Assembly (NCBI RefSeq): GCF_000981225.1
Contig: NZ_LAJC01000032.1
Coordinates: 1 to 58,072, forward strand
Reading direction: 5' to 3'
Length of the DNA stretch: 58,072 bases
DNA from: Allosalinactinospora lopnorensis
GTDB taxonomy: Bacteria; Actinomycetota; Actinomycetes; Streptosporangiales; Streptosporangiaceae
Both the position numbers and the translations under genes were made by a program. Below are positions 22,789-48,751 of this stretch, in pieces. Numbering within the stretch: position 1 is the first letter of the stretch; every line of letters begins with the position of its first letter. Below the pieces are notes generated by a model, which made no database searches, was not told the DNA's origin, and saw nothing but the letters and a program-made list of their open reading frames with translations.

Positions 22789-23193
22789 ATGAGCGTGACC
22801 GGGCAGATGATCGAGACCTACCCCAAGGACCTGGGCGGTGTGGACCGGGACAAGATGCGGGCCTGCATCGAGGCCTGCTACGAGTGCTCCCAGGCCTGTA
22901 CCGCGTGCGCGGACGCCTGTCTGAGCGAGGAGACGGTCGCGGAACTGGCGAAGTGTATCCGCACCAACCTCGACTGCGCCGATCAGTGCGACGTCACCGG
23001 GCGGGTGCTGTCCCGGCACACCGGATACGACGCGAATCTCACTCGCTCGGTGCTGGAGGCGTGTGCCCAAGCCTGCAAGACCTGCGGGGACGAGTGCGAG
23101 CGGCATGCCGCCCACCATGAGCACTGCCGCGTGTGCGCCGAGGCGTGCCGCCGCTGCGAGCAGGCCTGCCGCGAGCTGATCGCGGCCCTGTGA
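22789..23193 (+). CDS. Cysteine-rich four-helix copper-storage protein (Csp type)
   Basis: 134 residues with 18 cysteines spaced C-x3-C, C-x2-C and C-x3-C along four predicted helices (for example C26, C30, C33, C37, C40, C44 and C113, C116, C120, C123, C127). This is the DUF326/Csp pattern in which the core of a helical bundle holds many Cu(I) ions. There is no signal peptide, so it should be cytosolic, like Csp3. The ATG at 22789 has AAAGGGGG upstream. Neighbouring DUF305, DUF2269 and Asp-box genes strengthen a copper link. Confidence 0.92.
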   Translation: MSVTGQMIETYPKDLGGVDRDKMRACIEACYECSQACTACADACLSEETVAELAKCIRTNLDCADQCDVTGRVLSRHTGYDANLTRSVLEACAQACKTCGDECERHAAHHEHCRVCAEACRRCEQACRELIAAL

Positions 23194-27549: not shown

Positions 27550-28362
27550 ATGAATTCTTCCCGCTGGTCCCGCTGGACAACCATCGCCGCGGTCCTGCTG
27601 TTGGCCGTCATCGCCGCTGTCGTCAGCTACAGCCACATGTTCGAGCTGGCGCTGCGCCACGGCGAACCCGCCTGGCGTGCGGCGCTGTTCCCACTGTCCG
27701 TAGACGGGATGATCGTCTCCTCCTCCATGGCGCTACTGGCTGATGCCCGCCACGGCCGGCGCGGCGGCCTGCTGCCGTGGACGTTGTTGATCATTGGCAG
27801 TGTCGCGTCTCTCGCTGCGAACATCGCGGTGGCTGACCCCACCATGTGGTCGCGCATCATCCACGCCTGACCCTCCTTTGCACTGATCGGCGCGTATGAG
27901 CTGCTGATGCGCCACTTTCGCGCGAACGCGGCTGGCGTACGCCCGCAGTACTCCGGGCGTACGCAATCCTGGGGCGATTCGGCAAGCGACGCCGAGGAAA
28001 GCGCAGTGCACTCGGCGCCGGAGTCTGAGGATGCTCCAGGCGGGGAGGAACGACCTCATTTGCGAGTAGTCCAGACACGGACGGCTTCATCGAAGGCGGA
28101 AGTCGTCGAGCCCGTCGACGCAGAGGTATCACCGCCCCAGATTCAACGCGAGGCCTGGGCGTGGGCATTGGATAACCGCCGCGAGGATGGCTCCTTGCCT
28201 ACCGGTCAGGAGTTGGCCAAGCAGTTCGGCCGGAAGCCCCGCTGGGGGCGGCTCGTGAAGCAGAAAGGTGAGCAGGGTTATCTGGGCCAAAGCCCAAAGG
28301 TAAAACTTTCCCTGGCTAGGGAACCGCGTGCTGCTGCAGCACCTGACTCCGGGACGGGCTGA
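27550..28362 (+). pseudogene. DUF2637 membrane protein, copy B, internal stop
   Basis: Same protein as copy A (3929-4692). From ATG 27550 the frame runs through the Arg/Trp start and helices VLLLAVIAAVVSYSHM, VDGMIVSSSMALL and LLPWTLLIIGSVASLAA, then hits TGA at 27868-27870 where copy A has CGG. The frame continues open to 28362 with the ELLMRHFRANAAGV helix and the DNRREDGSLPTGQELAKQFGRK tail. A start at 27499 is also possible. Spd-like proteins act in conjugative spread of actinobacterial plasmids and integrative elements; this one is broken by a single nonsense codon. Confidence 0.75.
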
Positions 28363-28488
28363 AGAAACTGTTCGGTGAATCCCGGTGATCGCCGATACAT
28401 CGTAAGAAGCTCCCGAACAACGCGTACAAGGGTCCCTGACGCTGCGCTTTCTTCCACAGAAGACCCCGTGTGGGGGTGGGAAGGCTCG

Positions 28489-29913
28489 TTACTGGAGCAG
28501 GCTGAGGGTCGGGCCGGCTGCCAGGCCGAGCAGGAGGACCAGGACGCCTGCTGCCAGGGCGACGGTGGTGCTCCGGCGTTGCGGCGTTTCGGGACCGGAT
28601 TCGTTGGCCGGGGTGCCGGCTCTGGTCTGGAACAGGGGGAGTATCCAGCGCAGGTAGTAGAAGAGGCTGGCGACGGTGTTGATGATGGCCAGCACCACGA
28701 GCCAGGCCAGGCCCGCGTCCACGGCGGTGGTGAAGACGGTGAGCTTGCCGACGAAGACCGCGGTCGGCGGTGTTCCGACCAGGCTCAGCAGACTGACGAC
28801 GAGGCTGAGCGACAGCCACGGGTGGTGGCGGAAGAGGCCGGTGTAGTCGTCCAACATTCGTGTGCGCGGGAGCGCGCACACGACGGCGAACGCCGCGAGG
28901 TTGCTCACCGCGTAACCGGCCAGGTAGAAGAGCAGGCTTGGCAGCGCCAAAGCGGATCCACCACCGGCGGCGGCCACCGCCATCAGCAGGTAGCCGACCT
29001 GGCTGATGGTGGAGTAGGCGAGCAGGCGTCGTACATTGCGTTGGAAGAACGCGGCCAGGTTGCCCAGGGTCATCGACGCGGCGGCCAAGAGCGCGGCGAC
29101 CAGTGTCCAGTCGAGTGGGGCCGCTACGACGACCTGGTCCCCCAGCCGGTAGAGAGCGACGAGCGCCCCGATCTTGGGGACGGTGGTGACGAACGCGGCC
29201 ACGGGCGCCGACGCCCCTTCGGTGACATCGGGCACCCAGAAATGAGCCGGTACGCCCCCAGCCTTGAACAGCAGGCCGGCCAGGACCGCTGTGACGCCGA
29301 CCGCCACCACGGTGCGCGGCGCGGCCGGCAACGTCTGCGCCAGCACCGTGTAGTCGGTGGCCCCGCCCGCCCCGAGCAGCAGGGTGGCCCCGGTCAGCAG
29401 CAGCACGCCCAGGAGCGCGCCCAGGAGATAGTACTTGAGGGTGGCCTCGGTGCCGGGCGGGTCCTTGGCGAAACCGGCCAGCGCGTACAGCGGGATGCTG
29501 GCCAACAGGTAGGCCACAGCGAGCACCAGGAGGTCGTTGGCTCCGGCCAAGGTGATGGTGCCGAGGGCGGCGAGCACCAGCAGGACATAGAACTCTGACT
29601 CGCGCGGGTGTCCGGCGACCGAGTCGGCGGCCAGCGGCACCGTCAGCAGCAGAGCGGCGAGTACCACCGCGCGGGCGGCGTGCGTGCCGAGGTCCACCAC
29701 GTACCCGCCGGTGAGAAGGGTGTCGCCCGGCCAGACCATGGCCCCGATCGTGATGATGAGCCCGCCGGCTACGGCGACAGCGACGCCCGTCCGCACGATC
29801 CATTGCCGCCGCCGGGGCATCCAACTTCCCACGAGCAGCCCGGCGACCGCGGTCAGCGCGAGAGCGGCTTCGGGCGCGAGCGCGACCAGTTTCATCTCAG
29901 CCATGGCGCTCAT
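28489..29913 (-). CDS. nuoN: NADH-quinone oxidoreductase subunit N-like antiporter
   Basis: 474 residues, about 14 helices, a Mrp-antiporter-like subunit. The Lys of the central channel is present in GLLFKAGGVPAHFWVPD, and the broken-helix regions (RNVRRLLAYSTISQVGY; GTPPTAVFVGKL) are well conserved. Its ATG overlaps the nuoM stop (ATGA). In complex I this subunit carries one proton channel of the membrane arm. It is the last gene of the operon. Confidence 0.92.
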   Translation of the reverse strand: MSAMAEMKLVALAPEAALALTAVAGLLVGSWMPRRRQWIVRTGVAVAVAGGLIITIGAMVWPGDTLLTGGYVVDLGTHAARAVVLAALLLTVPLAADSVAGHPRESEFYVLLVLAALGTITLAGANDLLVLAVAYLLASIPLYALAGFAKDPPGTEATLKYYLLGALLGVLLLTGATLLLGAGGATDYTVLAQTLPAAPRTVVAVGVTAVLAGLLFKAGGVPAHFWVPDVTEGASAPVAAFVTTVPKIGALVALYRLGDQVVVAAPLDWTLVAALLAAASMTLGNLAAFFQRNVRRLLAYSTISQVGYLLMAVAAAGGGSALALPSLLFYLAGYAVSNLAAFAVVCALPRTRMLDDYTGLFRHHPWLSLSLVVSLLSLVGTPPTAVFVGKLTVFTTAVDAGLAWLVVLAIINTVASLFYYLRWILPLFQTRAGTPANESGPETPQRRSTTVALAAGVLVLLLGLAAGPTLSLLQ

Positions 29914-31426
29914 CGGGTCACCAGGGCGACAAGGAGCTGGGAGGCCGGTTCGATGACGTCGAGGAGGAACCTGGGCAGCACTCCGATGACGACGGCGAGC
30001 GCCACCAGTGGCGCGATCGCGGTGAGCTCACTGGCGAAGAGGTCGGTGACGTGTGCCTTCGGTGGGATTCGCCGGTGGCCGAGAAACACGCGGTTCAGGG
30101 CGCGCAGGAACAGAGCGGCGACGATGAGGATGCCGGGCAGCGCCAGCGCTGCGGCGATCGGCACGATGCCCAGACTTCCGGTGAAGATCTGGAACTCGGC
30201 GATGAAGCCGGACAGGCCCGGTAGGCCGAGGGAGCCGAACGCCGCTACCGCGGTCAGGGCTGCGAAGCGTGGTGTGAGGCCGGCGAGCCCACCGTAGGAA
30301 TCCATCGCATATGTGTCGCCCCGGTCGTGGAGTACCCCCACCAACAGGAACAGCGCTCCGGTGAGCAGCCCATGGCTGACCATCTGGGTGAGGCCTCCGG
30401 TCACGGCCAGGCTCGCGGCCTGGGCCTGGTCGCTCGTTGCCAGGCCGGCGGCCCCCAGCCCGAGGAGGATGTAGCCCATGTGGTTGACCGAGGTGTAGGC
30501 GACCATCCGCTTGAAGTCGGTCTGGGCGAGCGCGAGCAGCGCGCCGTAGAGCACGGAGACCACCCCGACGACCACGAACACCATGGCGTAGTCGCGCCAC
30601 GCGTGCGGCAGGATCGGCATAGTGATGCGGACGAACCCGTAGGTGCCCATTTTCAGCAGCACACCGGCGAGGATCGCGGACCCCGCCGCCGGGGCGTCGG
30701 TGTGCGCGGGCGGCAGCCAGGTGTGGAACGGCACGGTGGGGGTCTTGATGGCCAGGCCGATACCGACGGCCAGCAGCACCAGGCCGCCCGCGAGCCCGTG
30801 CCCTTCCAACGGGGATTGGGTCGCGAGTTCGACCATGTCGAAGGTGTGCGGCTCGGCGGCGAGGTACAGCCCGATGAACCCCAGCAGCAGGGCGAGCGAG
30901 CGAGAAAGGTGTAGAGGAAGAACTGCAGCGCCGAGCGGACGGGATCGCGGTGGCCCCACCCGGCGATGACAAAGTACATACCGACGATGGACAGGTCGAA
31001 GAAGACGAAGAACAGGATCAGGTCGAGGGCGACGAACAGGCCCAGCGACACCGTCTGCAGGAAGAGGAACACAACGGCGTAGGAGCGCACGCGCCGCTTC
31101 TCGCGCAGCGAATAGAGCGCGCAGGCCAAGAAGAGCACCGCCGTCATGGCGAGCAGCGGCAGCGAGAACCCGTCGACACCGATGTGGTAGCCGACCCCGA
31201 CATTGGGGATCCAGCGCAGATTGGTCTCATAACCGATCGGTCCGGTGATCCCGTCGCCGGTGGGGCGCGTGCCGCGCACATAGCCGACCCACAGTGTGAC
31301 GACCAGCGCCAGGTCCAGCGCCGCCACCGCGATCCAGGTCCACAGCACCGTGGCGTCGCGCGGGCACGGCACGGCGAGCAGCGCGACGCCCGCGATGAGC
31401 GGCAGGAAGACGACCAGGGAGAGCAC
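29910..31426 (-). pseudogene. nuoM: NADH-quinone oxidoreductase subunit M-like antiporter, one frameshift
   Basis: Two overlapping frames make one NuoM. The first (GTG 31426 down to about 30905) covers the N-terminal helices through DPVRSALQFFLYTFL; the second continues SLALLLGFIGLYLAA to the stop at 29910. One G is missing in CTCGGCTCGCTC near 30905. The channel Lys is in IGLAIKTPTVPFHTWLPPAH. The Glu essential in E. coli NuoM (residue 144) is Asp here (FFVFFDLS, position 144). All else is intact, so the break may be a sequencing error. Confidence 0.85.
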
Positions 31427-31429
31427 GCC

Positions 31430-33307
31430 TCACCTCGACAACACGACGACGATGGCCAGCAGAATGAACGCGGCGACGGCTTGGGCGTAGTACTGGTGCA
31501 GTAACCCCGTCTGCAGGCGCCACGACCACATCGCCAGCACGCGCGCGCCCGCGGCGATGGCCCGCACCGCCCGATCGACCCGGATCTCCACACGCGCCTC
31601 GGCCTGCTGGGCGCCCCACACGCCAAGGGCCGCGCATGCCCGCACTCCGCCCGCGATCACCCGGTCGTCGAACGCGGCGAGGCCGTGCGACAGTGCCGAC
31701 ACCGGCCGGACAACGCTGGCGTGTATACCCCGTTCGATCGCGAGCCAGTCACCCAGCAACCGCCCGCCCGGAACGGTCTCCGATACCGCCGGGGAACCGC
31801 GCCGGACACTGACCCATGCGGTGCCGGCGAGGGTCACGACGCTCAACGTGCCGGAGACCGCGATCTCCCAGCCCACGGGGCTGGGCTCACCCGCCGTTCC
31901 CACCGTCGAGTACCACCACGGCGCGAGCACCGGCAGGGCGAGAATCCCGACGGCGGCCGCGGTCGCGGCGAGGACGGGCAGCGGGAGTCCCTCGGCCGGG
32001 GAGACGCGCGCGGTGGCACGCTCCCGGGTGGCGTCGGGCGTCCGCGGCCCCGGTGGGGACCAGACGGCGACCAGCGCCTTGGCGGCATAGGCGGCGCTGA
32101 CCACTGAGGCCGCCAGGCCGGTGACGTACAGGGCGGGTGAGGCGTGCAGCGCACTGGCCAGTACTTCGTCCTTGGCCACCCAGACGGACAGCGGCGGCAG
32201 CCCTCCGATGGCCAGCGCCCCGACCGAGAACGCCGCGCCGACGAGCGGGTGGTGGCGCGCGGCTCCCCGCAAGGCTGTGAGGTGCTGGGTGCCCACGGCG
32301 AGCAGCCAAACTCCCGCGCACAGGAAGAGCAGGCTCTTCGCGGCCGCGTGCGCGACAAACTGCAGCGCGCCGCCCGCGATGCCGCCCGTACCCGCCGCCA
32401 GCACGATGAACCCGATCTGCGAGCAGGTTGAGGCGGCCAGCAGCTGCTTCAGGTCGGTTTGGGCGAAGGCGACCGCCCCGAGCAGCAGGGCGGTGAGCAC
32501 ACCGATCCAGGCCACGGCCGCATCGGCCCAGGCGGTGGCGGCCAGCGCGGGTTCGAGCCGCAGCAGCAGGTAGCCGCCGGCCGCGACCATCGTCGCCGAG
32601 TGCAGCAGCGCCGAGACCGGAGTCGGGCCGGCCATGGCGTGCGAGAGCCAGAAGCTGAGCGGCAGCTGTGCGGACTTGCCCAGGGCGGCGACGACGAGAC
32701 CGGCGACGGCCGCGTCACGCCAGGCGCTGTCGAGGCCCGCCAGGCCGGACAGTTCCAGCGCGGTCGCGCCTCCGGCCAGGGCGGCCCCGGCCGCGAAGTA
32801 CATCCCCAGATCGGCGGTTCGAGTGGTGACGAAGGCGAGCGTGGCCGAGTGGACCCGGTGGGGCTCACGCCACCAGTAGGCGATGAGCGCATACGAGGTG
32901 GCGCCCATGATCTCCCACGCGGCGAGCAGCGCCAGCAGGTCGGTCGCGGTCACGGTGATGAGCATCGCCGCGGCGAACAGCGACATCAGCCCGAAGAAGC
33001 GGGCGCGCGCCTGTGCCGGATCCAGCTCACCGGTCGCGAACACGATGACCGCCAGAAACACAGCGGAAACGGTGATGACCATGGCCGCGGACAATCCGTC
33101 CACGGCCAGGCCCGCGGGGATACCGGCCAGCATGGGCGCCGAAACCTCGGGGCGGCCAACGGCGACGGTGGCGCCCAGCACGAGCCCGGCCGTCGCCACG
33201 GCCACGGCGCACGGAGCGGCGATCGGGTCGGCGCGCCTGCCGACCACCAGCAATGCCAGCCCGGCCAGGGCGGGTAACCCCACCAGTGACCACAGCGCGG
33301 CCGTCAT
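31430..33307 (-). CDS. nuoL: NADH-quinone oxidoreductase subunit L-like antiporter
   Basis: 625 residues. Channel residues are all present: Glu132 (LLAAWEIMG), Lys211 (GKSAQLPLSFWLSHAM), His236 (LLHSATMVAAG), His320/Lys324 and Lys379 (VWVAKDEVL). The C-terminus keeps the long lateral-helix region and a final anchor helix (YYAQAVAAFILLAIVVVL). The ATG at 33307 overlaps the nuoK stop (TGATG). A proton- or cation-translocating subunit at the tip of the membrane arm. Confidence 0.92.
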   Translation of the reverse strand: MTAALWSLVGLPALAGLALLVVGRRADPIAAPCAVAVATAGLVLGATVAVGRPEVSAPMLAGIPAGLAVDGLSAAMVITVSAVFLAVIVFATGELDPAQARARFFGLMSLFAAAMLITVTATDLLALLAAWEIMGATSYALIAYWWREPHRVHSATLAFVTTRTADLGMYFAAGAALAGGATALELSGLAGLDSAWRDAAVAGLVVAALGKSAQLPLSFWLSHAMAGPTPVSALLHSATMVAAGGYLLLRLEPALAATAWADAAVAWIGVLTALLLGAVAFAQTDLKQLLAASTCSQIGFIVLAAGTGGIAGGALQFVAHAAAKSLLFLCAGVWLLAVGTQHLTALRGAARHHPLVGAAFSVGALAIGGLPPLSVWVAKDEVLASALHASPALYVTGLAASVVSAAYAAKALVAVWSPPGPRTPDATRERATARVSPAEGLPLPVLAATAAAVGILALPVLAPWWYSTVGTAGEPSPVGWEIAVSGTLSVVTLAGTAWVSVRRGSPAVSETVPGGRLLGDWLAIERGIHASVVRPVSALSHGLAAFDDRVIAGGVRACAALGVWGAQQAEARVEIRVDRAVRAIAAGARVLAMWSWRLQTGLLHQYYAQAVAAFILLAIVVVLSR

Positions 33308-33618
33308 CAAGGCGCGTCCTTCAGGTCGCCGGCCGAATCCACCACGTCGACGTCACGTGAACGGAAGATCGCGGTGGTCACGGCGAAGCCCATGGCCATC
33401 TCCACCGCCATCGCGGTGATCGCGACCAGCACCAGTACCTGCCCGTCGGGACGATCCGCGGAGGTGTAGAACCAGAAGGCCGCCGCCGCCACGATGATCG
33501 CGTTGATCATCAGCTCCAGGCCCATCATGATCATGACGATGGACTGCTGGCTCAGCGCCCCGAACAGACCCACCGCGAACAGCGCGGCGGCCAACAGCAG
33601 GAACAGCTCCAGGATCAC
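33307..33618 (-). CDS. nuoK: NADH-quinone oxidoreductase subunit K-like
   Basis: 103 residues, three helices. Both key intramembrane glutamates are kept: Glu35 in MMGLELMINA and Glu73 in MAVEMAMGFAV. These carry the fourth proton path of complex I. A GTG start at 33618 overlaps the nuoJ stop (GTGA). Confidence 0.92.
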   Translation of the reverse strand: MILELFLLLAAALFAVGLFGALSQQSIVMIMMGLELMINAIIVAAAAFWFYTSADRPDGQVLVLVAITAMAVEMAMGFAVTTAIFRSRDVDVVDSAGDLKDAP

Positions 33619-34178
33619 CGGCCCACCCCGCCGCGAATCGGATCATCGGGGTGCTTGCGCCGCAGGTCATCGCCGTAGCGGGCATAGCGCCCGCGGTGCG
33701 TGGCGAGCACGATCGATGCGACCATCGTCGCGAACAGCACCATGCCGACGAGCATCATCACGAGCATCTTCTCGCCCATGATCGCCTCGCCGAGCGCCAA
33801 TGTGGGATCGGCCGGAGGGGCGGCGGTGCTGGTCGGCCATGGGACGAGGAGGACACCGGCCGCGAGCGCGACGAACGTGCCGACGGAGATGGCCAGGGCA
33901 CCGGCCTTGTTGTGCACCATGGTCATCGGCATCAACCCGGCCGGGTTCATCATGTACATGACCATGAAGATCACCATGATCATCATCTCCATGACCATCA
34001 TCAGCACGACCAGCACGCCGAGGTAGGACAGGCCCAGCAGCAGGATCGGCACCGCCGTGAAGACGAACGAGGCCAGCAACGCGAAGGTCGCCCGAGCCAT
34101 GGAGTCCACCACGAACACCGCGATGCCACTGGCCACCGCGCTCGCGGCGCAGATCGCGAATACCACCAGTTCCGCCAC
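33615..34178 (-). CDS. nuoJ: NADH-quinone oxidoreductase subunit J-like, Met-rich
   Basis: 187 residues with five helices. The usual opening VVFAICAASAVASGIAVF and the pi-bulge helix region SYLGVLVVLMMVMEM are recognisable. The central helix and loop are extremely rich in Met (about 15 in 32 residues around MVIFMVMYMMNPAGLMPM), which is not normal for NuoJ and recalls copper-relay or heme-proximal segments. The GTG at 34178 has AGGGGAACGC upstream and follows the nuoH stop by 8 bases. Confidence 0.88.
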   Translation of the reverse strand: MAELVVFAICAASAVASGIAVFVVDSMARATFALLASFVFTAVPILLLGLSYLGVLVVLMMVMEMMIMVIFMVMYMMNPAGLMPMTMVHNKAGALAISVGTFVALAAGVLLVPWPTSTAAPPADPTLALGEAIMGEKMLVMMLVGMVLFATMVASIVLATHRGRYARYGDDLRRKHPDDPIRGGVGR

Positions 34179-34186
34179 GCGTTCCC

Positions 34187-35113
34187 CTAACCCAGCAGCA
34201 CGAAGATCGCGACGAGCAACGCCTGCAACAACGTCGCCGGAATCAGCACCACCCAGCCGATCTCGGTGAACCGCTCCATGCGCACCGTAGGCAGCCGGTG
34301 CCCGAGCCATACCAGCAAAGCGAGCACAGCGGCCGTCTTAACCAGCGACCACGCCCAAGCGGGAAGCAGCAGGCCGGCGCCACCGCCGAGGAACAACGGC
34401 ACCGCCATGGCCGCGACGACACTGAGCAACACGTAGCGACCGGCTCCCACGACGAGACGGTCCACGCCGGACAGCTCCGCCAACGCGCCGCCGGCGAGGT
34501 CACGCCCCACGGGCTGGTCGAACGGCCCCCAGAACGCCATGGCCAGTGCCGAGACCAGATAGGCCACGAAAGCCACCGGCATCAGCACGGCGAACCACAG
34601 GCCCTGCTGCGCCGCGGCGATGTCGGTGACGCGCAGCGAACCGGCGCCCAGCGCGGCGGTGATCAGCGCGAACATGTGCGGCAACTCGTAGGCCACACCC
34701 TGGACCAAAAAGCGGTAGCCACCGATCAGACCCCAGACCGAGTTGGCCCCCCACCCGAGCATCCACACCGCCGCCCAGATCACCACCTCCATCGCGTTGA
34801 ACCACACAACACCGACCGACAGGTCACTGACCACGAACCCGCCCAGCGGGATCACCAGCGCCGACAGGGCCGCGGCCACCGGAACGAGCGTCCCGCCCAG
34901 CCGCAACAGCAAGGCGTCCGTGCCCAGAACGACGCGGCGCCGCTGCACCAGCAGCCGCGCCGCCGACCGCGCGGGAGCGGCGATGCCCGAGGCGCGTGGG
35001 GTGCCGGCGGCATGGGCCCGCAGCGTGGCCGACCCCGCCGCGGCCCCGTAGGCGAAGACACCAAGGAGCACGGGGATGACGAGGACACTCCACAGTGGTG
35101 CCGGATCACCCAT
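34187..35113 (-). CDS. nuoH: NADH-quinone oxidoreductase subunit H-like, altered quinone loop
   Basis: 308 residues, eight helices. NuoH is recognised by GWGANSVWGLIGGYRFLVQGVAYELP and by WGPFDQPVGRDLAGGALAELSG. In normal NuoH the latter loop is PFDLPEAE-x-ELVAG-x-x-TEYSG and its glutamates line the quinone chamber; here they are replaced (PVGRDL), so the quinone site is probably not functional. Starts at ATG 35113, overlapping the fusion gene by 8 bases. It is the hinge between membrane arm and the missing redox arm. Confidence 0.88.
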   Translation of the reverse strand: MGDPAPLWSVLVIPVLLGVFAYGAAAGSATLRAHAAGTPRASGIAAPARSAARLLVQRRRVVLGTDALLLRLGGTLVPVAAALSALVIPLGGFVVSDLSVGVVWFNAMEVVIWAAVWMLGWGANSVWGLIGGYRFLVQGVAYELPHMFALITAALGAGSLRVTDIAAAQQGLWFAVLMPVAFVAYLVSALAMAFWGPFDQPVGRDLAGGALAELSGVDRLVVGAGRYVLLSVVAAMAVPLFLGGGAGLLLPAWAWSLVKTAAVLALLVWLGHRLPTVRMERFTEIGWVVLIPATLLQALLVAIFVLLG

Positions 35114-36233
35114 GGGAGCCCTCCCGGTCTCCCGCGGTGAGTGTCCCGAGATCCGGATCCACAGACGCTACGATCAACCGCACCGCGGCCAGCTCCTGGC
35201 CGATCAGCAGCGACGGCAGCAGTCGCAGCGCCGCGCGCGTGCTCTGCGCGCGCAGCGCCGCGGAGGCGCGCGGATCCGGCGGTGGGGCGGCGCCACCACC
35301 TTCGGCGACCGCCGCGAACTCGACCTCGTCGAGCCATCGTGACCAGCGGTCAGTGGCATCACCGCGCATCCACGCCGCCGTGTCGCCCGTGATCTCGCCG
35401 AGCCCATTGGTGGACCACCGCAGCATGCGGGAACGGCGCACCCTTCGCAGCCAGCGCACCAGGTCCCGGGGCGGCAGGGTTTGCGGATCCGTGCTCAGCA
35501 ACGCGTCGCGCAGGCGGCGCCCGGAGAGCGCCGCGGAGGGCCAACCGGCGACCGAGAGGAGCCGCTGCATACTGTCCAAGGCGCCCGCCGCCCGGGCCCG
35601 AAGCGAGTCGGGGTGCCCGTCAGCATCCACGACCGGTGCGTCCCAGTAGGCGACCGTGGCCTCTGTGGGTTCACCAACGGTCGAGGCCTCGGCGTCCTGG
35701 ACCACGTCGCCCTGAATCACCAGCCGAAGCGACAACCCGCTCGGCCAGTCGGGCAACGCCGGGCCCAGCGCGATGTGGAGCTGATCGAGCATGAGGCCAT
35801 CGCGGTCCTCGGCCCGATCGGCCATCGGCACACCACCCGGCATCATCATGTCGCCGTTGTGCCCTGAGGCTGTCGGAGAGGCCGAATGCGTCGCTCGATC
35901 ACGTTGCTCGGCGTCGCGGCGCTGCCGGGCGACGTCACGTAGTTCGGCGCGGGCCTCGTCAAGCCGGCGGGCAGCCACCTCCGGGGCGTCGACCCGGACG
36001 CGCGCACGCGGACCGGGCAGCTGATCCCACACCCGGTCCACGGGGCCCACCAGATCCCGATGGCGGGGGCCGCAGACCATGAGAAGGTCGGCCTCGGCCG
36101 GCGCCAGCGCCTGCGCCCAGCCACGCTCGCGCAGCACGCGCTCGACCGCCAGCCGGGCGCCCGTGCCGCCAACAGCGGTGACGACGAAGGCACTCGGCGC
36201 CGCCCGACGCAGCAGCCACCGCGTCAGGTCCAC
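35106..36233 (-). CDS. NuoB-like/NuoD-like fusion lacking Fe-S ligands
   Basis: 375 residues, soluble. Residues about 15-85 resemble NuoB (AEADLLMVCGPRHRDLVGPVDRVWDQLPGPR, matching the ADLLIVAGT...QMPEPR region), but of the four cluster-N2 cysteines none is placed correctly; only Cys54 is present. After a charged, Met/His-containing linker (about 95-148), residues 152-183 (LHIALGPALP..WPSGLSLRL..GDVV) and 345-372 (AAVRLIVASVDPDLGTLTAGDR) resemble the start and C-terminal end of NuoD. The gene starts at GTG 36233, overlapping nuoA by 10 bases, and overlaps nuoH by 8. It likely caps NuoH as a structural remnant of the Q-module. Divergence makes the homology call moderate. Confidence 0.65.
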   Translation of the reverse strand: MDLTRWLLRRAAPSAFVVTAVGGTGARLAVERVLRERGWAQALAPAEADLLMVCGPRHRDLVGPVDRVWDQLPGPRARVRVDAPEVAARRLDEARAELRDVARQRRDAEQRDRATHSASPTASGHNGDMMMPGGVPMADRAEDRDGLMLDQLHIALGPALPDWPSGLSLRLVIQGDVVQDAEASTVGEPTEATVAYWDAPVVDADGHPDSLRARAAGALDSMQRLLSVAGWPSAALSGRRLRDALLSTDPQTLPPRDLVRWLRRVRRSRMLRWSTNGLGEITGDTAAWMRGDATDRWSRWLDEVEFAAVAEGGGAAPPPDPRASAALRAQSTRAALRLLPSLLIGQELAAVRLIVASVDPDLGTLTAGDREGSHG

Positions 36234-36574
36234 CGGAACACCCCCTCCCGCCAGCCGTAGATCACCGCTGCGACCAGGACCGCCAGAAACACGAACATCT
36301 CGACGACCGCCACCGCTCCCATGTCGGCCACCACGAGCACCCACGGGTACATGAAGACCATCTCCATGTCGAAGGCGAGGAAGAGCAGCGTCACCGCATA
36401 CCAACGCACGTGATAGCGCGAGACCGCGTGCTCGGTCACGGGAACCCCGGACAGGAAGGGTTCGCAGACCATTGGCGCGCGCCTGATCCGGACCATCGCG
36501 GAAAGCCCGTAGGCGCCGATGAGAAGCGCGATCAGCGCGCCGAGCAACACCAGCGCGGGTCCGAACGCCTCCAA
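36224..36574 (-). CDS. nuoA: NADH-quinone oxidoreductase subunit A-like
   Basis: 116 residues, three helices. CEPFLSGVPV corresponds to the family Y-E-C-G-x-x-P loop, and FLAFDMEMVFMYPW keeps the conserved intramembrane Asp69 and Glu71. A TTG start at 36574 follows GAGGAGGAGGG. First gene of the operon nuoA-fusion-nuoH-J-K-L-M-N, in which most neighbours overlap or nearly touch. Confidence 0.88.
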   Translation of the reverse strand: MEAFGPALVLLGALIALLIGAYGLSAMVRIRRAPMVCEPFLSGVPVTEHAVSRYHVRWYAVTLLFLAFDMEMVFMYPWVLVVADMGAVAVVEMFVFLAVLVAAVIYGWREGVFRWT

Positions 36575-36893
36575 GCCCTCCTCCTCGACGGCCGTAGCTC
36601 CCTCCGCCGTAGCGACTGCCCAAAGGACGCGGCGTTACACGGCCCATAGGGACGCGGGGTATCAGCCTCATGGTCGGTATCGACGGCGAATCCCGCCCCC
36701 TGCTTCGAGCTCCAGGTTGGCGAGCAGGAAGATCTGCCCCTGATCGGCACTGACCGGGAGACGAAACCGAACCGCGTGACGTCGTTTCGTCCTCGACCGT
36801 CACGGTCACCAATTCGTCTGGCTTAGCGGCCGCACGTCGCCGACCAGGTCGCCGGGATGCGGAAAGGGGAGCTCCGGAAGAGGGGACGGGCGG
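36575..36893. other. Upstream region of the complex-I-like operon
   Basis: About 320 bp. A minus-strand frame contains RLPVSADQGQIFLLANLELEAG and another VTVTVEDETTSRG, which look like pieces of a decayed secreted protein, but I cannot name it. No clear promoter for nuoA was found. Confidence 0.35.
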
Positions 36894-37562
36894 TCACGCT
36901 GGATCGGCTTTCCCGTTGTCCTCGCCGAGAACCGTTTCGACGAGGTCGGTCAGTTGGTTGTAGGTGGTCGCGCCCACGACGCGGGCGGCGACGCGGCCCT
37001 CACGGTCGACGATGATCGTGCTCGGGATGGCCTGGGGCGGAACGGTGTCGCGGAACGTCATCAGGACCGCGCCGGGCTGATCGCGGATGCTCGGGTAGGT
37101 CACGCCCAGGTTCCTCTCGAACGCCTTGGCGGCGGTCCTATCGTCCTTGATGTCGAGGCCGAGGAACTCCACGCCCTCGTCTTTGTGCTCCTGGTAGACC
37201 TCGCTCAGCACCGGCATCTCCTCGCGACACGGTGTGCACCAGATCGCCCAGACGTCGACCGCGAGGATTGTGCCTTCGTAGTCCGCCAGGCTCATGGGAT
37301 CACCGTCGAGGGTCTCGCCGCTGAACTCGGGGGCCGGCCGGCGTTCCTCCGGCGCTTAGGAGGCGGCGGATCAGTCGCTGATGATGTTGAACTGATCTTC
37401 CTCTCCGGCTTGGGCGTCCGTGTCTTCCGTTTTCTGGGCGCAGCCGACGAGGGCGGCCGTCACCGCGAGAGCGACAGCGCCATGCAGTGCCGCGCGTCTA
37501 CGGATTCCGGGGTGGCCGACGGGCCGTGTCAAAGGTCCCGAATGCGGAGATGAGCCAAGCAT
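36894..37562 (-). pseudogene. TlpA-like thioredoxin lipoprotein with two in-frame stops
   Basis: The ATG at 37562 (AGGGG upstream) opens a lipoprotein signal with lipobox LVGC and an acidic linker to ..QFNIISD. In the same frame come TGA (37371-37373), four codons, TAA (37356-37358), then APEERRPAPEFSGETLDGDP and a full AhpC/TlpA domain with redox motif WCTPC, cis-Pro IPST and GLDIKDD. TlpA proteins reduce exported thiols or cytochrome c precursors. The two stops separate anchor and catalytic domain; internal initiation at ATG 37295 could still give a cytosolic thioredoxin. CcdA, its usual electron donor, is also broken nearby. Confidence 0.8.
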
Positions 37563-37719
37563 CGTATCCCCTGAGCCGCCGGAAGAGGGGCCATGGTGGT
37601 CAGGCTCGCCCAGTTCGTCGCGCCGGTTGTGTAGTGCGGTGCTCCGGGGCGCTGTTGCCTCTTCGGGCTTTGAATGGTGGCGAGAATCGGTCGGTGCTGC
37701 CCGGAAAACGCCACAGGAT

Positions 37720-37747
37720 TCACCGATGAAACTAAGTCGCTTAGGTA
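37720..37747. promoter_or_regulatory. ACCTA-N7-TAGGT-type box 1
   Basis: A palindrome CTAAGTCGCTTAG (37731-37743) within a longer conserved unit. The 17 bases from 37731 match 44893-44909 with one mismatch, and the reverse strand of 37720-37745 matches 42589-42614 at 22 of 26 bases. It lies 158 bases before the TlpA-like gene and 250 before the methyltransferase. Regulator unknown. Confidence 0.6.
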
Positions 37748-37995
37748 TGAGACATCGTGTGCCTGGCTTCCGCGTGGCCCTCGCAACAACACCGCCGTGG
37801 TCACCGTGGGAGGTCATGGAACCAGTCGAGGCGGGCCCGAGTACTCGTGCGCCTTGTGATCGACGAAGCCAGTTAGGTGCACGGGGTGGTGGGTAGGGGC
37901 GCTTCCGTACGGGCGGAGCGGTTATCGCTTCGGTCTCCGCGGTCGCCCGTGAGTGGGTAGACCAGCAGTAGGATCCGGGTGGGAAGCGGTTCGCA

Positions 37996-38631
37996 ATGGT
38001 CGAGAACAAGACGGAGAGGTCGCGGGCGCTGTGGGATCGGTTCGCGCGGCGCTACGACCGCAGCATCCGGCCCACGGAGGTACTGCTGCTGGAGGACGGG
38101 CGGCGATGGGCATGTTCGCAGGCGCGGGGCCGCACACTTGAGGTCGGCATCGGCACCGGCCGCAACGTGGCGGAGTACCCCGACGGCGTCGAATTGCTCG
38201 GGGTGGACCTCAGCCCGTGGATGCTGTCGATCGCCCGGCGGCGGGCGACGGAGCTGGGGCGGGACGTGGAGCTGCGCCAGGGGGACGCCATGCGGTTGCC
38301 ATGGCCGCGGGCGAGCTTCGACTCCGTTGTCGTCACCCTGACCCTGTGCAGCGTGCCCGACGACGCGGCCGTGGTCGATGAGATGGCGCGGGTGCTCGTT
38401 CCCGAAGGCCGCCTGATCGTCCTAGAACACGTCGGCAGCCACCAGAAGTTCCCGCGCATGGTGGAGCGGCTGTTCGATCCGCTGACCCGTCGCCTGATGG
38501 AGGACCATCTGCTGCGTGAGCCCGAACCTCACCTGGATGCGGCCGGCTTGCGGATTACGCACGCCGAACGCCGCAAACTCGGAACCATCGCCCGCGTCGT
38601 GGCGGAGAAACCACGGGCTCAGACGGGTTGA
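37996..38631 (+). CDS. Class I SAM-dependent methyltransferase (UbiE-like) 1
   Basis: 211 residues. Motif I is LEVGIGTGRN, motif II GVDLSPWML, followed by DAMRLPWPRASFDSVVVTLTLCSVPDD and the post-motif VLVPEGRLIVLEHV. This UbiE/COQ5-like group often methylates phospholipids, quinones or metals. A paralog with the same layout is at 48071-48751. A small SHOCT membrane protein follows 63 bases downstream. The ATG at 37996 has GGGAAGCGG upstream. Substrate not predictable. Confidence 0.88.
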   Translation: MVENKTERSRALWDRFARRYDRSIRPTEVLLLEDGRRWACSQARGRTLEVGIGTGRNVAEYPDGVELLGVDLSPWMLSIARRRATELGRDVELRQGDAMRLPWPRASFDSVVVTLTLCSVPDDAAVVDEMARVLVPEGRLIVLEHVGSHQKFPRMVERLFDPLTRRLMEDHLLREPEPHLDAAGLRITHAERRKLGTIARVVAEKPRAQTG

Positions 38632-46350: not shown

Positions 46351-47239
46351 TCACATGGTGCCCGTGCACATCTGTTGGACGAGCAGGGCCGCGTTGGCCG
46401 CACCGGCGAGTACGACCGCCGCGATCATCGCGCTGACCAGCCACGAGCGGCGCGGAATGGGCGGCAGCGGCGGTTCGCTACCCGTTTCGAGCTGGGTGAT
46501 GCGGGCGTCTACTGTGGTGGCGCCAGCCATCGCGGCGGCTGGGGAGGCGGCCCAGGCCGGAGGGCTCAGCACGCGCAGGAGGGCGCCCGCCAGGGGCCGG
46601 GTGCCGCAGCGGGTAATGGCCCGCCGGTCGGCGGCCAGCTCCCGGCCGGCGACGAAGCGCTCCGAGAGATGCCGCAGCGCCGGCAGGTAGAACTCACGCG
46701 CGAGCAACACGCGGATCGCCAGGATCCAGTGGGTCGCGGCTACGGGCATGTGCGGACTCGTGGGCGAGAATCGCGGCGAGTTCGGCGGCTGGCGCCATGC
46801 GGACGAGGCCGCTGCTCACCGCGACCCGCGGGATCCACAACCCATAGGTGAAGGCGAAGGGTTCCTCGGCCTGCGCCACGCTGACCCGTCCCGACAGCCC
46901 GTAGGGGCCCACGATCCGATCGAGGTCGGCGGCCGGGGCCGTGACACGGGCCCGCACCTTTCCGCGCCGTGCGTGATCCGCGCGCAGTTCCCCAGCCAGG
47001 CGGATCACGGCCGTGCCCGTCGAGACGAGCAGGAGAGCGGCCAGCGCAGCGAGCGCCAGCATCCGCCACCCTCCTGCCCACAGCGCCGCCGGGCCCAGCG
47101 TCCACAGATGGACAGCCACGACGCAGATCGCGCAGCAGGCCAGGGCCGTGAGAACACCACGAAAGCCCAGAGCCAGGACCAGCAGCAGCGACAGGGCCCG
47201 GTTGCCGCTGTCCAGGCGCGCCAATGCCTGAGGACTCAC
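46351..47239 (-). pseudogene. M56 (BlaR1-type) membrane metallopeptidase 2, one frameshift
   Basis: The first frame (GTG 47239, overlapping the BlaI stop as GTGA) has four helices and the zinc motif HESAH at 160-164 before shifting near 46735. The second frame continues HWILAIRVLLAREFYLPALRHL with ERFVAGRELAADRRA, holding the third zinc ligand, and ends with an anchor helix. Intact apart from the single shift. It would sense a signal at the membrane and cleave BlaI 2. Third member of the SHOCT-BlaI-M56 operon. Confidence 0.82.
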
Positions 47240-47604
47240 GGCGAGGTCTCCGGTGGCGAATCGTGGAGCAGCCGCCGCAATCGGTCTCGTGCCTCAGGGT
47301 CGGCTTCGATCTGGTCCACGAAGTGGGCGACGGCCGCCTGGCCGTGCTCGGCGAGTACCGTGCGCACGGCCAGCGCCGCCGGGTCCGACCCAGCGGGACG
47401 ATAGGCGAACCCCCGCCCGCGCGCCTTCCGGATTACCGCGTCCTTTTCCGCCAGCCGCGCCAGCACGGTCATCACCGTTGTGTAGGCCAGCGGCGAATGG
47501 CGATCGCGATTGAGCTCGCCACGGACCTCGCGGACCGTCATCGGTCCCTCGGCTTGCCACAGCACCTCCATCACTGCGGTCTCCAGCGGCCCCAGCGCCA
47601 CCAT
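47236..47604 (-). CDS. BlaI/MecI/CopY family repressor 2
   Basis: 122 residues: GPLETAVMEVLWQAEGPMTVREV, a recognition helix AYTTVMTVLARLAEK and wing, then a C-terminal dimer helix. The ATG at 47604 overlaps the SHOCT gene's stop (TGATG), and its own stop overlaps the M56 start. Its probable operators are the palindromes at 48022-48059 in front of the operon. Confidence 0.9.
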   Translation of the reverse strand: MVALGPLETAVMEVLWQAEGPMTVREVRGELNRDRHSPLAYTTVMTVLARLAEKDAVIRKARGRGFAYRPAGSDPAALAVRTVLAEHGQAAVAHFVDQIEADPEARDRLRRLLHDSPPETSP

Positions 47605-47894
47605 CAATTCCCCCCGGAGCCGCCGCGCCCCTCGGCGCGCAGGAGATCGCTCAGGATCCGCTCAAGGGTGGCGTGGTCGATGTCGCCGCGGGCGTAACGC
47701 TCCTTGGCCAGCACCACCGCACCGGAATCCTTCGAGTCCGTGCGAGGTCCCGAGGCGGTGAGGGCAGGGACACGCGATTGTGCGAGTGCCAGGAGCAGCG
47801 CGAACGCGACCACCCCGGCCAGCAGCGCGCTTAATACGGGAAACGCCAAGGTCGGCCCCGGCATCCCCATCGATTCCATCATCGAGCCACACAT
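47604..47894 (-). CDS. Small SHOCT-domain membrane protein 2
   Basis: 96 residues: a Met-rich start (MCGSMMESMGMPGPT), one helix (LAFPVLSALLAGVVAFALLLALA) and a SHOCT tail (VVLAKERYARGDIDHATLERILSDLL). The ATG at 47894 follows GGAGGTGAGG. It opens the BlaI 2-M56 2 operon and is a relative of the protein at 38695. Confidence 0.8.
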   Translation of the reverse strand: MCGSMMESMGMPGPTLAFPVLSALLAGVVAFALLLALAQSRVPALTASGPRTDSKDSGAVVLAKERYARGDIDHATLERILSDLLRAEGRGGSGGN

Positions 47895-48021
47895 ACGGTC
47901 CTCACCTCCAGGGGCAGAACGCGCGAAGTACCACACACCCACAGTAAAAACGCGGCCCGGCTTCCTGATGGGGCGACGCCGCGGAGTCGTGGCGGCCTGG
48001 GTAGGTCTTCGCCCACACATT

Positions 48022-48059
48022 TTACTATCCCAGCGTAGTAATAACTACGATTATGTAGT
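48022..48059. promoter_or_regulatory. Tandem BlaI-type operators between the SHOCT-BlaI-M56 operon and methyltransferase 2
   Basis: Two adjacent palindromes: TTACTA-N8-TAGTAA (48022-48041) and ACTAC-N6-GTAGT (48044-48059). They share the CTAC/GTAG arms of the sites near 11.1 kb. They end 11 bases before the methyltransferase GTG and lie about 130 bases before the SHOCT gene, so a repressor here could control both directions. Confidence 0.6.
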
Positions 48060-48070
48060 AGAAAGGTGGT

Positions 48071-48751
48071 GTGAACTCCCGAAAGCTGAGATCCGCGATG
48101 CGATCGTCACGACGCGCCAGGCACATCGAGATCACCGACCAGATACGGCGACACTGGGATCGCCAGGCACCGCGATACGACCGAATGATGGACCGGATGG
48201 AGCGGCTCTTCCTCGACGGCAGCCGCGAGTGGTTGTGCTCCAAGGCCGGCGGGAACACCCTTGAGGTCGCGATCGGAACCGGCCGTAACCTGCCGCACTA
48301 CCCGGACCAGGTGAACCTGACCGGCATCGACCTCAGCCCTCGCATGCTGGAGATTGCCCGGGAACGCGCTCACACACTCGGCGTACAGGTGGATCTGCGC
48401 GAGGCCGACGCCCAACACCTCCCCTTCGCCGATGCCTCCTTTGACACCGTGGTCTGTGCCCTGTCGCTATGCGCCGTGCCCGACCTGGACGCCACCGTCA
48501 CTGAGATGCGCCGCGTGTTGCGCCCCGGTGGCCAGCTCCTGCTCCTGGACCACGTGCGCCCCACCTTCCTGCCCGTGCGCTGGCTGCTGCTCACCATCCA
48601 GGGCCTGATGAACGTGTTCGACCCCGGCAACGGCGAGCAGATGATGCGCCGCCCACTGCTGACCGTGCGGGAACACGGCTTCACCGTGGAACAACGCGAC
48701 AGGTTCAAGGCCGGCGTCATCGAACGCCTCGCGGCCCGCAAACCCGACTAG
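48071..48751 (+). CDS. Class I SAM-dependent methyltransferase (UbiE-like) 2
   Basis: 226 residues, same family as the protein at 37996. HWDRQAPRYDRMMDRMERLFLDGSREWLCSKAGG leads into motif I LEVAIGTGRN, GIDLSPRML, DAQHLPFADASFDTVVCALSLCAVPD and VLRPGGQLLLLDHVRPT. The GTG at 48071 has AAAGGTGGT upstream. Divergent from the SHOCT-BlaI-M56 operon with BlaI-type operators in between, so it is likely stress-induced. Substrate unknown; phospholipid or quinone head groups are possible. Confidence 0.88.
   Translation: MNSRKLRSAMRSSRRARHIEITDQIRRHWDRQAPRYDRMMDRMERLFLDGSREWLCSKAGGNTLEVAIGTGRNLPHYPDQVNLTGIDLSPRMLEIARERAHTLGVQVDLREADAQHLPFADASFDTVVCALSLCAVPDLDATVTEMRRVLRPGGQLLLLDHVRPTFLPVRWLLLTIQGLMNVFDPGNGEQMMRRPLLTVREHGFTVEQRDRFKAGVIERLAARKPD

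Follow-up and report, generated by a model that had tools for sequence, protein, structure and literature searches.

A complex I-like operon with a fused, reduced NuoB-NuoD cap and a possible role in copper export

The central puzzle of respiratory complex I (NDH-1, NuoA-N) is how the movement of protons at a distance is driven by the chemistry of its quinone site. Several relatives of this enzyme are known. The Mrp Na+/H+ antiporters are redox-free relatives of its membrane arm, and differ from the operon described here in the ions that they carry and in having no known NuoB/NuoD-derived cap or H-type subunit. The membrane-bound hydrogenases, formate hydrogenlyase and MBS, which appear among the fold matches in this study, are shorter relatives with NuoB- and NuoD-type subunits and are, to our knowledge, all oxidoreductases with Fe-S clusters. 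DAB2 (DabA2-DabB2), a carbonic anhydrase powered by the proton-motive force, resembles our system in pairing an antiporter subunit of the complex I type with a cytoplasmic partner that carries out no redox chemistry; as far as the accessible text goes, it differs in having one antiporter subunit, an unrelated cytoplasmic fold and CO2 as its substrate (PMC13144422).

Incomplete nuo clusters have also been described in actinomycetes. Streptomyces possesses a second cluster of this kind, nuo2 (SCO4599-4608), which the available passages describe as being without NuoCDEFG and L (PMC9239103). In addition, a partial NDH-1 operon, nuoAHJKLMN, has been known from the literature since 2012 as a set of ‘marine adaptation genes’ with a role in pumping protons or sodium in seawater, at least in the portions available to us (PMC3314556; PMC6002675; PMC6676996; PMC8622039). 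The first of these, in the part that we could consult, states the similarity between Mrp and nuo (PMC3314556). In the passages available, a 2019 paper is the only one to mention the gene that lies between nuoA and nuoH, which it gives as a hypothetical protein without homologues (PMC6676996).

Here we describe an operon, very probably the same one, in which the gene between nuoA and nuoH, designated X, encodes what is left of NuoB and NuoD. We consider it somewhat probable that the operon encodes a complex I derivative which no longer engages in redox chemistry and now runs as a proton-driven exporter of Cu(I), with binding, transport and direction all being inferred. While the loss of redox function is well supported, and the link to copper is well but not evenly supported, copper transport, its direction and its coupling to protons remain inferences for which there is no experiment.

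The window, by which we mean the whole stretch of 58,072 nucleotides of Allosalinactinospora lopnorensis DNA that was analysed, carries a tight operon on the minus strand with the gene order A-X-H-J-K-L-M-N. X runs from a GTG start at 36233 down to 35106 and encodes a protein of 375 amino acids with a single Cys, at residue 54; the plus strand is interrupted by stops across 35106-36233. Since the ends of the gene overlap both of its neighbours, nuoA (36224-36574; PF00507, E 6e-24) and nuoH (34187-35113; PF00146, E 1.5e-43), X occupies the usual place of nuoB, nuoC and nuoD, just as the original prediction had it. There follow, on the same strand, nuoJ-like (33615-34178; PF00499, E 2.7e-12) and nuoK-like genes (33307-33618; PF00420, E 4e-16), and then genes for three antiporter subunits: nuoL-like (31430-33310; PF00361, E 6e-52), nuoM-like (29910-31426; identified by tblastn with the NuoM of locus L036 and from open reading frames, without a Pfam scan) and nuoN-like (28489-29913; PF00361, E 2e-52). 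Gene calls in our scripts came from a simple custom caller instead of a standard program.

Homologues of A, B, D, H, J, K, L, M and N are thus collinear with those of complex I, whereas C and the electron-input genes E, F, G and I are absent from the operon, both in the window and in those annotated records that contain the full operon, where the order A-X-H-J-K-L-M-N recurs. As nuo2 is without NuoCDEFG and L, its gene set differs from that of the X operon. The likeness to the partial NDH-1 operon is closer, extending to the gene order and, in the accessible part of PMC6676996, to a hypothetical protein encoded between nuoA and nuoH, and the two are very probably the same, although their sequences were not compared. 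A search of 28200-38200 for sigma-70-type promoters gave none, and simple patterns revealed no copper-operator-like palindrome upstream of nuoA.

The N-terminal domain of X (residues 1-100; 35934-36233, minus strand) was assigned using a family profile against the PDB, hhalign and an AF2 model. When a profile of 78 X proteins was searched against all PDB sequences, it returned 46 rows, the best 42 of which were NuoB-type chains (best E 1.2e-6), with the remaining four at E 0.86 or worse; hhalign of X against 26 NuoB sequences gave P 8e-7 over 54 columns. For the X family, then, the predicted resemblance to NuoB goes beyond chance. By itself, the window protein yielded sub-threshold NuoB matches only (best E 0.075) and 12.9 bits with the NCBIfam NuoB model (cut-off 142.7), and a Pfam scan of it matched neither NuoB nor NuoD. 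The model of residues 1-110 (pLDDT 92.4) reached Z scores of up to 9.7 with NuoB chains, and catalase C-terminal domains reached 8.4, so the fold match alone is not decisive; the NuoB identity is carried by the sequence profile. None of 113 X relatives has the Cys-Cys pair of NuoB, the place of which is filled by GGT-type residues, and X is without the C-terminal half of NuoB that holds the other two Cys ligands, the aligned region stopping before them. Residue 54 is Cys in 74 of the 113 and Ala in 32, and is not a conserved ligand. These data bear out the earlier proposal of a NuoB-like N-terminus that has one Cys and has lost the ligands of cluster N2.

The ancestry of the C-terminal part (residues 138-367; 35133-35822, minus strand) is most visible in its structure, which matches a reduced NuoD (49 kDa) fold. 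An AlphaFold model of whole X, built without templates (pLDDT 91.2, pTM 0.90), aligned over this region with NuoD (8e9h_D) at Z 17.6 across 216 residues and 3.3 A by VIA, and Foldseek matched X to the NuoD fold with E 2.3e-5. The match in sequence is weak (hhalign, P 0.022). Among divergent relatives, a Halomonas protein at the same operon position scores 30.4 bits with the Pfam NuoD model (PF00346; cut-off 24 bits), and five of ten others scanned also exceed the cut-off, at 32.1-71.8 bits. The quinone-site His motif of NuoD (HP..H) is replaced in X by GP-x-L-x-x-WP-x-G, with W163 and P164 present in all 113 proteins. The original prediction of a NuoD-like C-terminus without the quinone-site His and Tyr is accordingly upheld for the fold and for the His, while loss of the Tyr rests on reading the X sequence, there being no structure-aligned column for it. 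That prediction would have been refuted had profile and structure searches failed to match NuoB and NuoD, and both matches were found. The NuoB profile, the NuoD fold and the relatives that pass the NuoD cut-off also rule out a new, unrelated cap. Taken at the level of sequence, X is a cap in which NuoB and NuoD are fused and reduced, and in which both the Fe-S ligands and the quinone His of NuoD are missing.

We then compared the membrane subunits with those of canonical complex I. Locus L093, in which we did not find H, J and K, was for that reason left out of the residue counts. The proton-path residues E144, D178, K229, K305, H338, K342 and K399 of NuoL are all kept in the window and in 78 of 78 sequences. 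In NuoM, K234, K265 and E407 are kept in 75 of 76 and E144 has become Asp in 75 of 76; in NuoN, the window and all 74 sequences keep K217, K247 and K395 and have Leu in place of E133, with K217 being Glu in 5 of 23 divergent rows. E36 of NuoK is kept in 77/77 (the window keeps both E36 and E72) and E81 of NuoA in 79/79 (the window keeps the equivalents of D79 and E81). The proton-path residues of L, M, N, K and A are thus mostly preserved, E133 in NuoN being an exception. NuoH differs from its complex I counterpart. Its quinone-entry loop, RxGPNR, is deleted; E241 is Arg and E216 is a non-acid in all 80 rows, E228 is kept in 75 of the 80, and the window retains E157 and E228, with E216 changed and Arg at E241. 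Loss of E216 is not universal, since 10 of 23 divergent rows have Asp there, nor is E157 universal (9 of 23 divergent rows). NuoH has thus lost E-channel acids together with the quinone-entry loop, and Y59 of the adjoining NuoJ is Met in 80 of 80 rows.

Could the operon simply be a functionless, decaying remnant of complex I? Its nuoM is split over two frames in this assembly (the shift lying between about 30866 and 30899), and two plasmids carry nuoA and a shortened X with H-N missing. Set against this, 74 of 80 loci have all eight genes in order, and contig ends truncate five of the remaining six; X has 30 invariant columns in 78 sequences; and the seven key residues of NuoL are kept throughout. 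Conservation contradicts the idea that X is a pseudogene or a functionless remnant, and we regard decay as highly improbable.

Conserved gains of Met account for 16 of 44 fixed swaps in A, J and K, compared with 2 of 108 in H, L, M and N (Fisher, 2.4e-8). The Met content exceeds that of the canonical subunits in J (9.8% vs 2.8%), A (5.0 vs 2.6) and K (7.7 vs 4.7), and is below canonical in H, L, M and N. The conserved new Met residues of J, K and A lie near the E-channel. In the window, NuoJ has a Met-rich third transmembrane helix and following loop (33897-34004; LMMVMEMMIMVIFMVMYMMNPAGLMPMTM), NuoA has gained three conserved Met (FDMEMVFM, within 36341-36373), and gained Met flank E36 and E72 of NuoK (33511-33537 and 33391-33417). 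Met columns 58, 59, 66, 70 and 74 of J were held in 22 of 22 further rows, 17 of which come from outside the main actinobacterial group and four from Pseudomonadota. On a helical wheel, the Met columns of NuoJ helix 3 were not significantly one-sided (P 0.07).

A second set of potential metal ligands lies in the linker of X (residues 101-142; 35808-35933, minus strand). In 113 proteins the linker is 11.2% His and 5.8% Met, as against 1.6% and 0.8% for the rest of X; the window's own linker is short and His-poor, with two His and four Met, and a Pfam scan of the window protein found no heavy-metal-binding domain (HMBD, PF19335). In Rubrobacter-like and some alphaproteobacterial relatives, an HMBD (CPMHP...CxxC) stands at the place of the linker; it was detected in all four Rubrobacter-like proteins scanned (E 1.5e-12 or better). 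Between one and three copies of HMBD-type motifs occur at this place, two plasmid X proteins having tandem copies (two and three), and all 12 plasmid relatives H40-H51 are annotated as heavy metal-binding. Judging by these linkers and motifs, metal is probably bound by the cap in many relatives. The description of the cap as cofactor-free consequently holds for Fe-S clusters and quinone, and probably does not for the many relatives with a His/Met-rich linker or HMBD.

We analysed up to 10 kb on each side of 80 actinobacterial loci, which were the best matches to the window and so are mutually related. At least one of seven copper-type families was found near 36 of the 80 loci, compared with 1 of 40 control regions (Fisher, 2.4e-7); in a matched set, with controls from the same genomes, the figures were 2 of 10 and 1 of 40 (P 0.10). 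Because the families were selected post hoc, as recurrent near the operon in these same loci, and the loci are related, these P values are too favourable. No member of the seven was present in the other 44 loci, six of which are short (4.8-14.9 kb). The association varies between genera: it holds for all loci of Nocardia and Prauserella (3/3 each), but for only some or none in Streptomyces (6/15), Actinomadura (1/10), Nocardiopsis (3/9) and Leifsonia (0/3). Taken alone, neither multicopper oxidases (7 of 80 loci vs 0 of 40 controls, P 0.05) nor DUF326 proteins (4 vs 0, P 0.19) were significant. Family labels were checked on one member per cluster: the CsoR member fits RicR and the DUF326 member Csp1, each below the respective cut-off, and the P-type ATPase cluster is mixed, joining a copper/heavy-metal-type member with a Ca/Na-type protein of the window. 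Further afield, copper- or heavy-metal-type genes were present in 10 of the 12 plasmid regions read, and a CopZ-like gene lies upstream on the same strand in five of six Rubrobacter-like loci.

Together, the copper-binding features and the frequent copper-resistance neighbours, with copper regulators and transporters among them, suggest that the complex probably moves copper, not electrons. In the specific form that we propose, for which we see an even chance, a complex I membrane arm uncoupled from electrons would use the proton-motive force to export Cu(I) along a Met ladder in the former E-channel, while the redox-dead NuoB-NuoD cap would collect copper via its HMBD or His/Met linkers, the whole system spreading through Actinomycetota and Pseudomonadota by means of plasmids and islands. 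The eight proteins would assemble as a membrane arm with a small cap; on the side of the cytoplasm, CopZ or the cytosol would supply the cap with Cu(I); the ion would travel outwards, between NuoA, NuoK and NuoH, by way of the Met ladder in helix 3 of NuoJ; and proton entry through L, M and N would drive the conformational cycle. A possible alternative, to which we attach a minor but not negligible weight, is a proton valve gated by copper. Here only protons (or Na+/H+) would move, to keep pH or membrane potential while the cell is under copper stress; the arm would be opened or closed by copper sensing in the cap and Met residues, and copper itself would not cross. The proton-path residues checked in L, M and N are kept, with the exceptions of E133 in NuoN and the E-to-D change at E144 in NuoM, and the copper neighbours and HMBD would suit sensing as well as they suit transport. 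The gains of Met, however, fall in the membrane segments of J, K and A and not in the cap only, and sensing alone would need none there.

A copper redox enzyme seems unlikely to us; in it, copper bound by Met and His would take over from the Fe-S clusters and quinone, and the oxidation of Cu(I) or the reduction of Cu(II) would be coupled to the proton-pumping arm. In its favour, the arm is of the kind found in a redox pump, and several neighbours are multicopper oxidases and cytochromes c; yet the operon has no gene for an electron carrier, the quinone-entry loop of NuoH and the quinone His of NuoD are gone, and sites rich in Met prefer Cu(I) and disfavour redox cycling.

Export of Cu(I), our preferred reading, also has to be weighed against the printed one, in which the partial NDH-1 serves marine or osmotic adaptation, as a pump for H+ or Na+ that is of help in seawater. 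The marine reading goes back to marine actinomycetes, as described by Penn and Jensen in 2012 (PMC3314556) and in later papers, so far as the accessible text shows, and several plasmid hosts are marine by record source. Such a pump would have no electron input, though; many hosts are from genera typically found in soil, the operon is also carried on Mycobacterium plasmid records from human sputum, one carrier named in the available part of the 2019 paper comes from copper-rich mine fluids (PMC6676996), and salt leaves the Met gains, HMBD and copper neighbours unexplained. We therefore give the seawater role little credence. The passages of the four ‘marine adaptation’ papers available to us mention neither the identity of X nor a role in copper nor the change in Met, and the word ‘copper’ is absent from the 2012 Salinispora paper (PMC3314556). 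Two copper papers examined for NADH or nuo terms gave no match, and in the open-access literature, mostly as titles and the starts of abstracts and with subscription papers and bioRxiv outside our scope, we found no tie between the operon and copper and no identification of X. Within the literature searched, the identity of X and the copper tie are accordingly new, and the operon itself, in print since 2012, is not. If copper is moved, the complex would be a metal transporter of a new class, one that travels together with copper-resistance genes, and the ‘marine adaptation’ reading would have to be replaced. More generally, a natural relative of complex I that has antiporter subunits and most proton-path residues, with its chemistry swapped and changes in the E-channel fixed, would reveal which parts make up the coupling machine and allow it to be studied without electrons.

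No member of the CsoR or CopZ clusters was found in the window, and the P-type ATPase encoded there at 54910 ends in a C-terminus of the Ca/Na type. Downstream of the operon lie three genes of kinds seen in copper islands, which encode an F510_1955-type protein (18556-19317, minus strand), a DUF305 protein (20303-20923, plus strand) and a Cys-rich DUF326 protein (22789-23193, plus strand).

Gene X (36233-35106, minus strand; 375 residues) overlaps both its upstream neighbour nuoA and its downstream neighbour nuoH; beyond nuoH come nuoJ, K, L, M and N, each overlapping the next gene or standing only a few bases from it. Because the host genome also encodes canonical nuoB and nuoD on a separate contig, the X operon constitutes a second, partial nuo set. 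Counting the window's own genome, X was present in 32 of 150 genomes from its order and in 23 of 396 genomes sampled across the phylum. The pattern matched 418 stretches in named genomes, of which 342 encoded a relative; the best 80 of these 342 were retained as loci, all presumably actinomycetes, judging by their names. The complete set A-X-H-J-K-L-M-N, in the same order and on one strand, was found in 74 of these 80 loci, five of the remaining six being truncated by contig ends and one (L093) lacking recognisable H, J and K. Plasmid matches comprised 16 records for the window X, eight for Halomonas X and 22 for a form labelled Rubrobacter-like after its best plasmid match, several of the latter through a metal-binding domain only. 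Within the window, NuoM is split at 30866-30899 (minus strand) into two overlapping frames, over both of which NuoM of a related locus (L036) aligns; the gene is either truly broken in this strain or affected by a draft-assembly sequencing error. Two plasmids, Martelella pMM259 and Xanthobacter pXAUT01, carry nuoA and then a shortened X, with H to N absent; an ISL3 transposase follows the Martelella copy, the annotation of the Xanthobacter remnant reads NiFe-hydrogenase III large subunit-like, and the operon seems to have been lost on some plasmids.

X is a NuoB and NuoD fusion by descent. A profile of 78 X proteins searched against PDB sequences returned 46 rows: NuoB-type chains occupied the top 42 (best E 1.2e-6), and unrelated proteins the last four (E at least 0.86). 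Comparison with 26 actinobacterial NuoB proteins using hhalign gave P 8e-7. The predicted model of residues 1-110 (pLDDT 92.4) matches NuoB chains over some 100-110 residues (Z up to 9.7); since unrelated catalase domains match the same model at Z up to 8.4, the NuoB identity rests on the sequence match. In the full-length model (pLDDT 91.2, pTM 0.90), residues 138-367 match NuoD-type chains, with a best Z of 17.6 over 216 residues at 3.3 A to mycobacterial complex I, and the 50 Foldseek matches listed (best E 2.3e-5) are complex I or supercomplexes, NDH, formate hydrogenlyase or MBS. Six relatives exceed the cut-off of 24 bits for the NuoD family PF00346, namely Halomonas X (30.4 bits) and five of another ten relatives scanned (32.1-71.8), and these less reduced forms close the gap between X and NuoD. 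The profile and structure comparisons recovered both halves of the fusion that the original prediction had proposed, and the absence of matches that would have refuted it did not materialise. In several X proteins from divergent Actinomycetota (L248-L257), the middle of NuoD is better preserved (SGPVARASGL...GFEP...GGD), giving a gradation from a fuller NuoD to the reduced one. Elsewhere in the host genome, a second Oxidored_q6 match (contig C41:27022-27372, within a 356-residue frame) is perhaps a hydrogenase small subunit, although this is a guess.

The loss of N2 ligands and quinone-site histidines, inferred originally from the window protein alone, extends across the family. The CC pair is absent from all 113 X proteins and the second N2 ligand pair falls outside the NuoB-aligned part, while the C54 position is occupied by Cys in 74 proteins and by Ala in 32. 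The NuoD motif GPxHPxxHG, whose two His serve the quinone site, has become GPxLxxWPxG, with W163, P164 and G166 in 113/113. The description of the cap as cofactor-free holds for redox centres, but many members have metal-binding parts in the cap and probably bind metal there. The linker of X contains 11.2% His vs 1.6% in the rest of the protein, and 5.8% Met vs 0.8% (113 proteins), with at least five His plus Met in 87; the window X, having two His and four Met, lies on the poor side of this range. At the same place Pfam detects an HMBD (heavy-metal-binding domain) in all four Rubrobacter-like X proteins scanned (E 1.5e-12 to 1.4e-13), Nitratireductor and Paracoccus X carry two and three copies of its motif, respectively, and all 12 plasmid hits H40-H51 bear a heavy metal-binding annotation.

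In an alignment of 80 NuoH proteins (79 loci plus the window), E216 is replaced by a non-acid and E241 by Arg throughout, E218 is Glu or Asp in only seven, and the RxGPNR loop is absent from 78-79, with E157 and E228 kept in 78 and 75. NuoJ Y59 has become Met (80/80) and NuoN E133 Leu (74/74); canonical actinobacterial proteins retain J Y59, N E133 and H E216, E218 and E241 in 16/16. The antiporter subunits remain otherwise intact at most checked sites: NuoL E144, D178, K229, K305, H338, K342 and K399 (78/78), NuoM K234, K265 and E407 (75/76, the remaining row being a gap; E144 is Asp) and NuoN K217, K247 and K395 (74/74), together with NuoK E36 (77/77) and NuoA E81 (79/79). In complex I, these L, M, N, K and A residues belong to the proton path. 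In an extra set of 22-23 rows, mostly divergent X operons, NuoH E157 is kept in only 9/23 and E216 is Asp in 10/23, NuoN K217 is Glu in 5/23 and NuoA D79 is Glu in 9/23.

Fixed differences between X-operon and canonical proteins, defined as 90% conserved on each side, were to Met in 16/44 cases for A, J and K vs 2/108 for H, L, M and N (Fisher 2.4e-8). NuoJ contains 9.8% Met vs 2.8% in canonical proteins, and its helix 3, which in complex I contacts NuoA and NuoK at the E-channel, follows the pattern LMMxMEMxxMxxFMxMYMM, with eight columns that hold Met in 95% or more of 80 rows but never in the 16 canonical rows. Columns 58, 59, 66, 70 and 74 are Met in all 22 further rows, including Halomonas, Vreelandella, Roseivivax and Acuticoccus, and column 61 in only four; the motif was also found in Nitratireductor and Paracoccus. 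In a quick, unrooted NuoL tree without thorough search (56 rows), all 39 X-operon rows were split from 17 canonical rows by a branch with SH-aLRT 100. The X-operon side held three deep groups: Rubrobacter-like forms with HMBD, Pseudomonadota with other Actinomycetota, and the main actinobacterial group including the window. The X family is a redox-dead branch of complex I.

Seven gene families (P-type ATPase, DUF305, CsoR, CopZ-like HMA, F510_1955, multicopper oxidase, DUF326) were scored up to 10 kb either side of each locus and in 40 control regions of 20 kb. At least one was present at 36/80 loci vs 1/40 controls (Fisher 2.4e-7; families picked after inspection of the loci), with ATPase at 23 (2.5e-5), HMA at 22 (4e-5) and CsoR at 16 (9e-4) vs none in controls; in the matched set of loci from control genomes the figures were 2/10 vs 1/40 (P 0.10). 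ABC and MFS transporters showed no enrichment near the 80 loci. One member of each family was checked, giving labels of copper/heavy-metal ATPase, CopM-type DUF305, RicR-like repressor, CopZ-like protein, F510_1955, copper-type multicopper oxidase and DUF326. At 5/6 Rubrobacter-like loci, a CopZ-like gene precedes the operon on the same strand, no more than about 2.5 kb away, alongside csoR and ATPase where the contig extends. Of 15 mostly divergent loci, 10 had a copper-type match above 40 bits, although for one of the ten, L272, the matches were solely to P-type ATPase frames whose specificity is unknown. Copper- or heavy-metal-type genes occurred in 10 of 12 plasmid regions chosen among matches: those of Arthrobacter, Pseudonocardia, Roseivivax, Acuticoccus, Nitratireductor, Paracoccus, M. 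avium (heavy-metal ATPase, HMA protein), Halomonas (copC, copD, copB, multicopper oxidase), Martelella (cueR, heavy-metal ATPase, HMA protein) and Xanthobacter (bilirubin oxidase, counted as multicopper oxidase). The Rhodococcus gene table held no copper gene other than BlaI/MecI/CopY-M56 pairs, and the Vreelandella region, all hypothetical proteins except one IS fragment, had none annotated.

The proton-path residues mostly kept, the cap without redox centres, the Met fixed in J, K and A, the metal-binding parts in many caps and the frequent copper context are all observed; the mechanism is inferred, and in it the operon proteins would assemble into one complex whose cap may collect Cu(I), a Met ladder would carry it and proton entry via L, M and N would pay for its movement. 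The inferred outward direction relies on the neighbours being resistance genes; the main rival is that the complex acts as a copper-sensing proton valve. Were copper indeed moved, the X operon would be a new transporter class. DAB2 shows that pmf can be used by a complex I-type antiporter subunit to power a cytoplasmic partner that is not a redox protein (PMC13144422). What is very probably the same operon was printed as a partial NDH-1 operon in Salinispora (PMC3314556) and as nuoAHJKLMN in marine Streptomyces and Kocuria, and was interpreted there as pumping protons or sodium to cope with seawater (PMC3314556; PMC6002675; PMC6676996; PMC8622039). A 2019 paper places a hypothetical protein between nuoA and nuoH, its legend giving no UniProt or PDB homologues, and names one carrier from copper-rich mine fluids, which it accounts for by osmotic stress (PMC6676996), and a 2025 complex I variant survey reports plasmid-borne Nuo subunits in 57 species, mostly partial sets. 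Among the open-access matches listed, none identified X, described the Met changes or the HMBD forms, or proposed a role in copper handling.

The window has DUF305, DUF326 and an F510-type protein 5-10 kb past nuoN, and a weak cupredoxin-like protein under the Pfam cut-off is encoded at 44026. The P-type ATPase at 54910-57330 has a Cation_ATPase_C domain (Ca/Na-type by Pfam) and is not an obvious copper ATPase. Two UbiE-like methyltransferases (37996-38631 and 48185-48751) lie upstream of the operon, and a UbiE-like gene of the same cluster directly precedes nuoA in two Nonomuraea loci (L063, L085). Several BlaI/M56-type regulator genes are found at 47236-50342 and 7690-8939; BlaI/M56 pairs also occur near the operon on Rhodococcus and Pseudonocardia plasmids, and BlaI-type genes at 12/80 loci.
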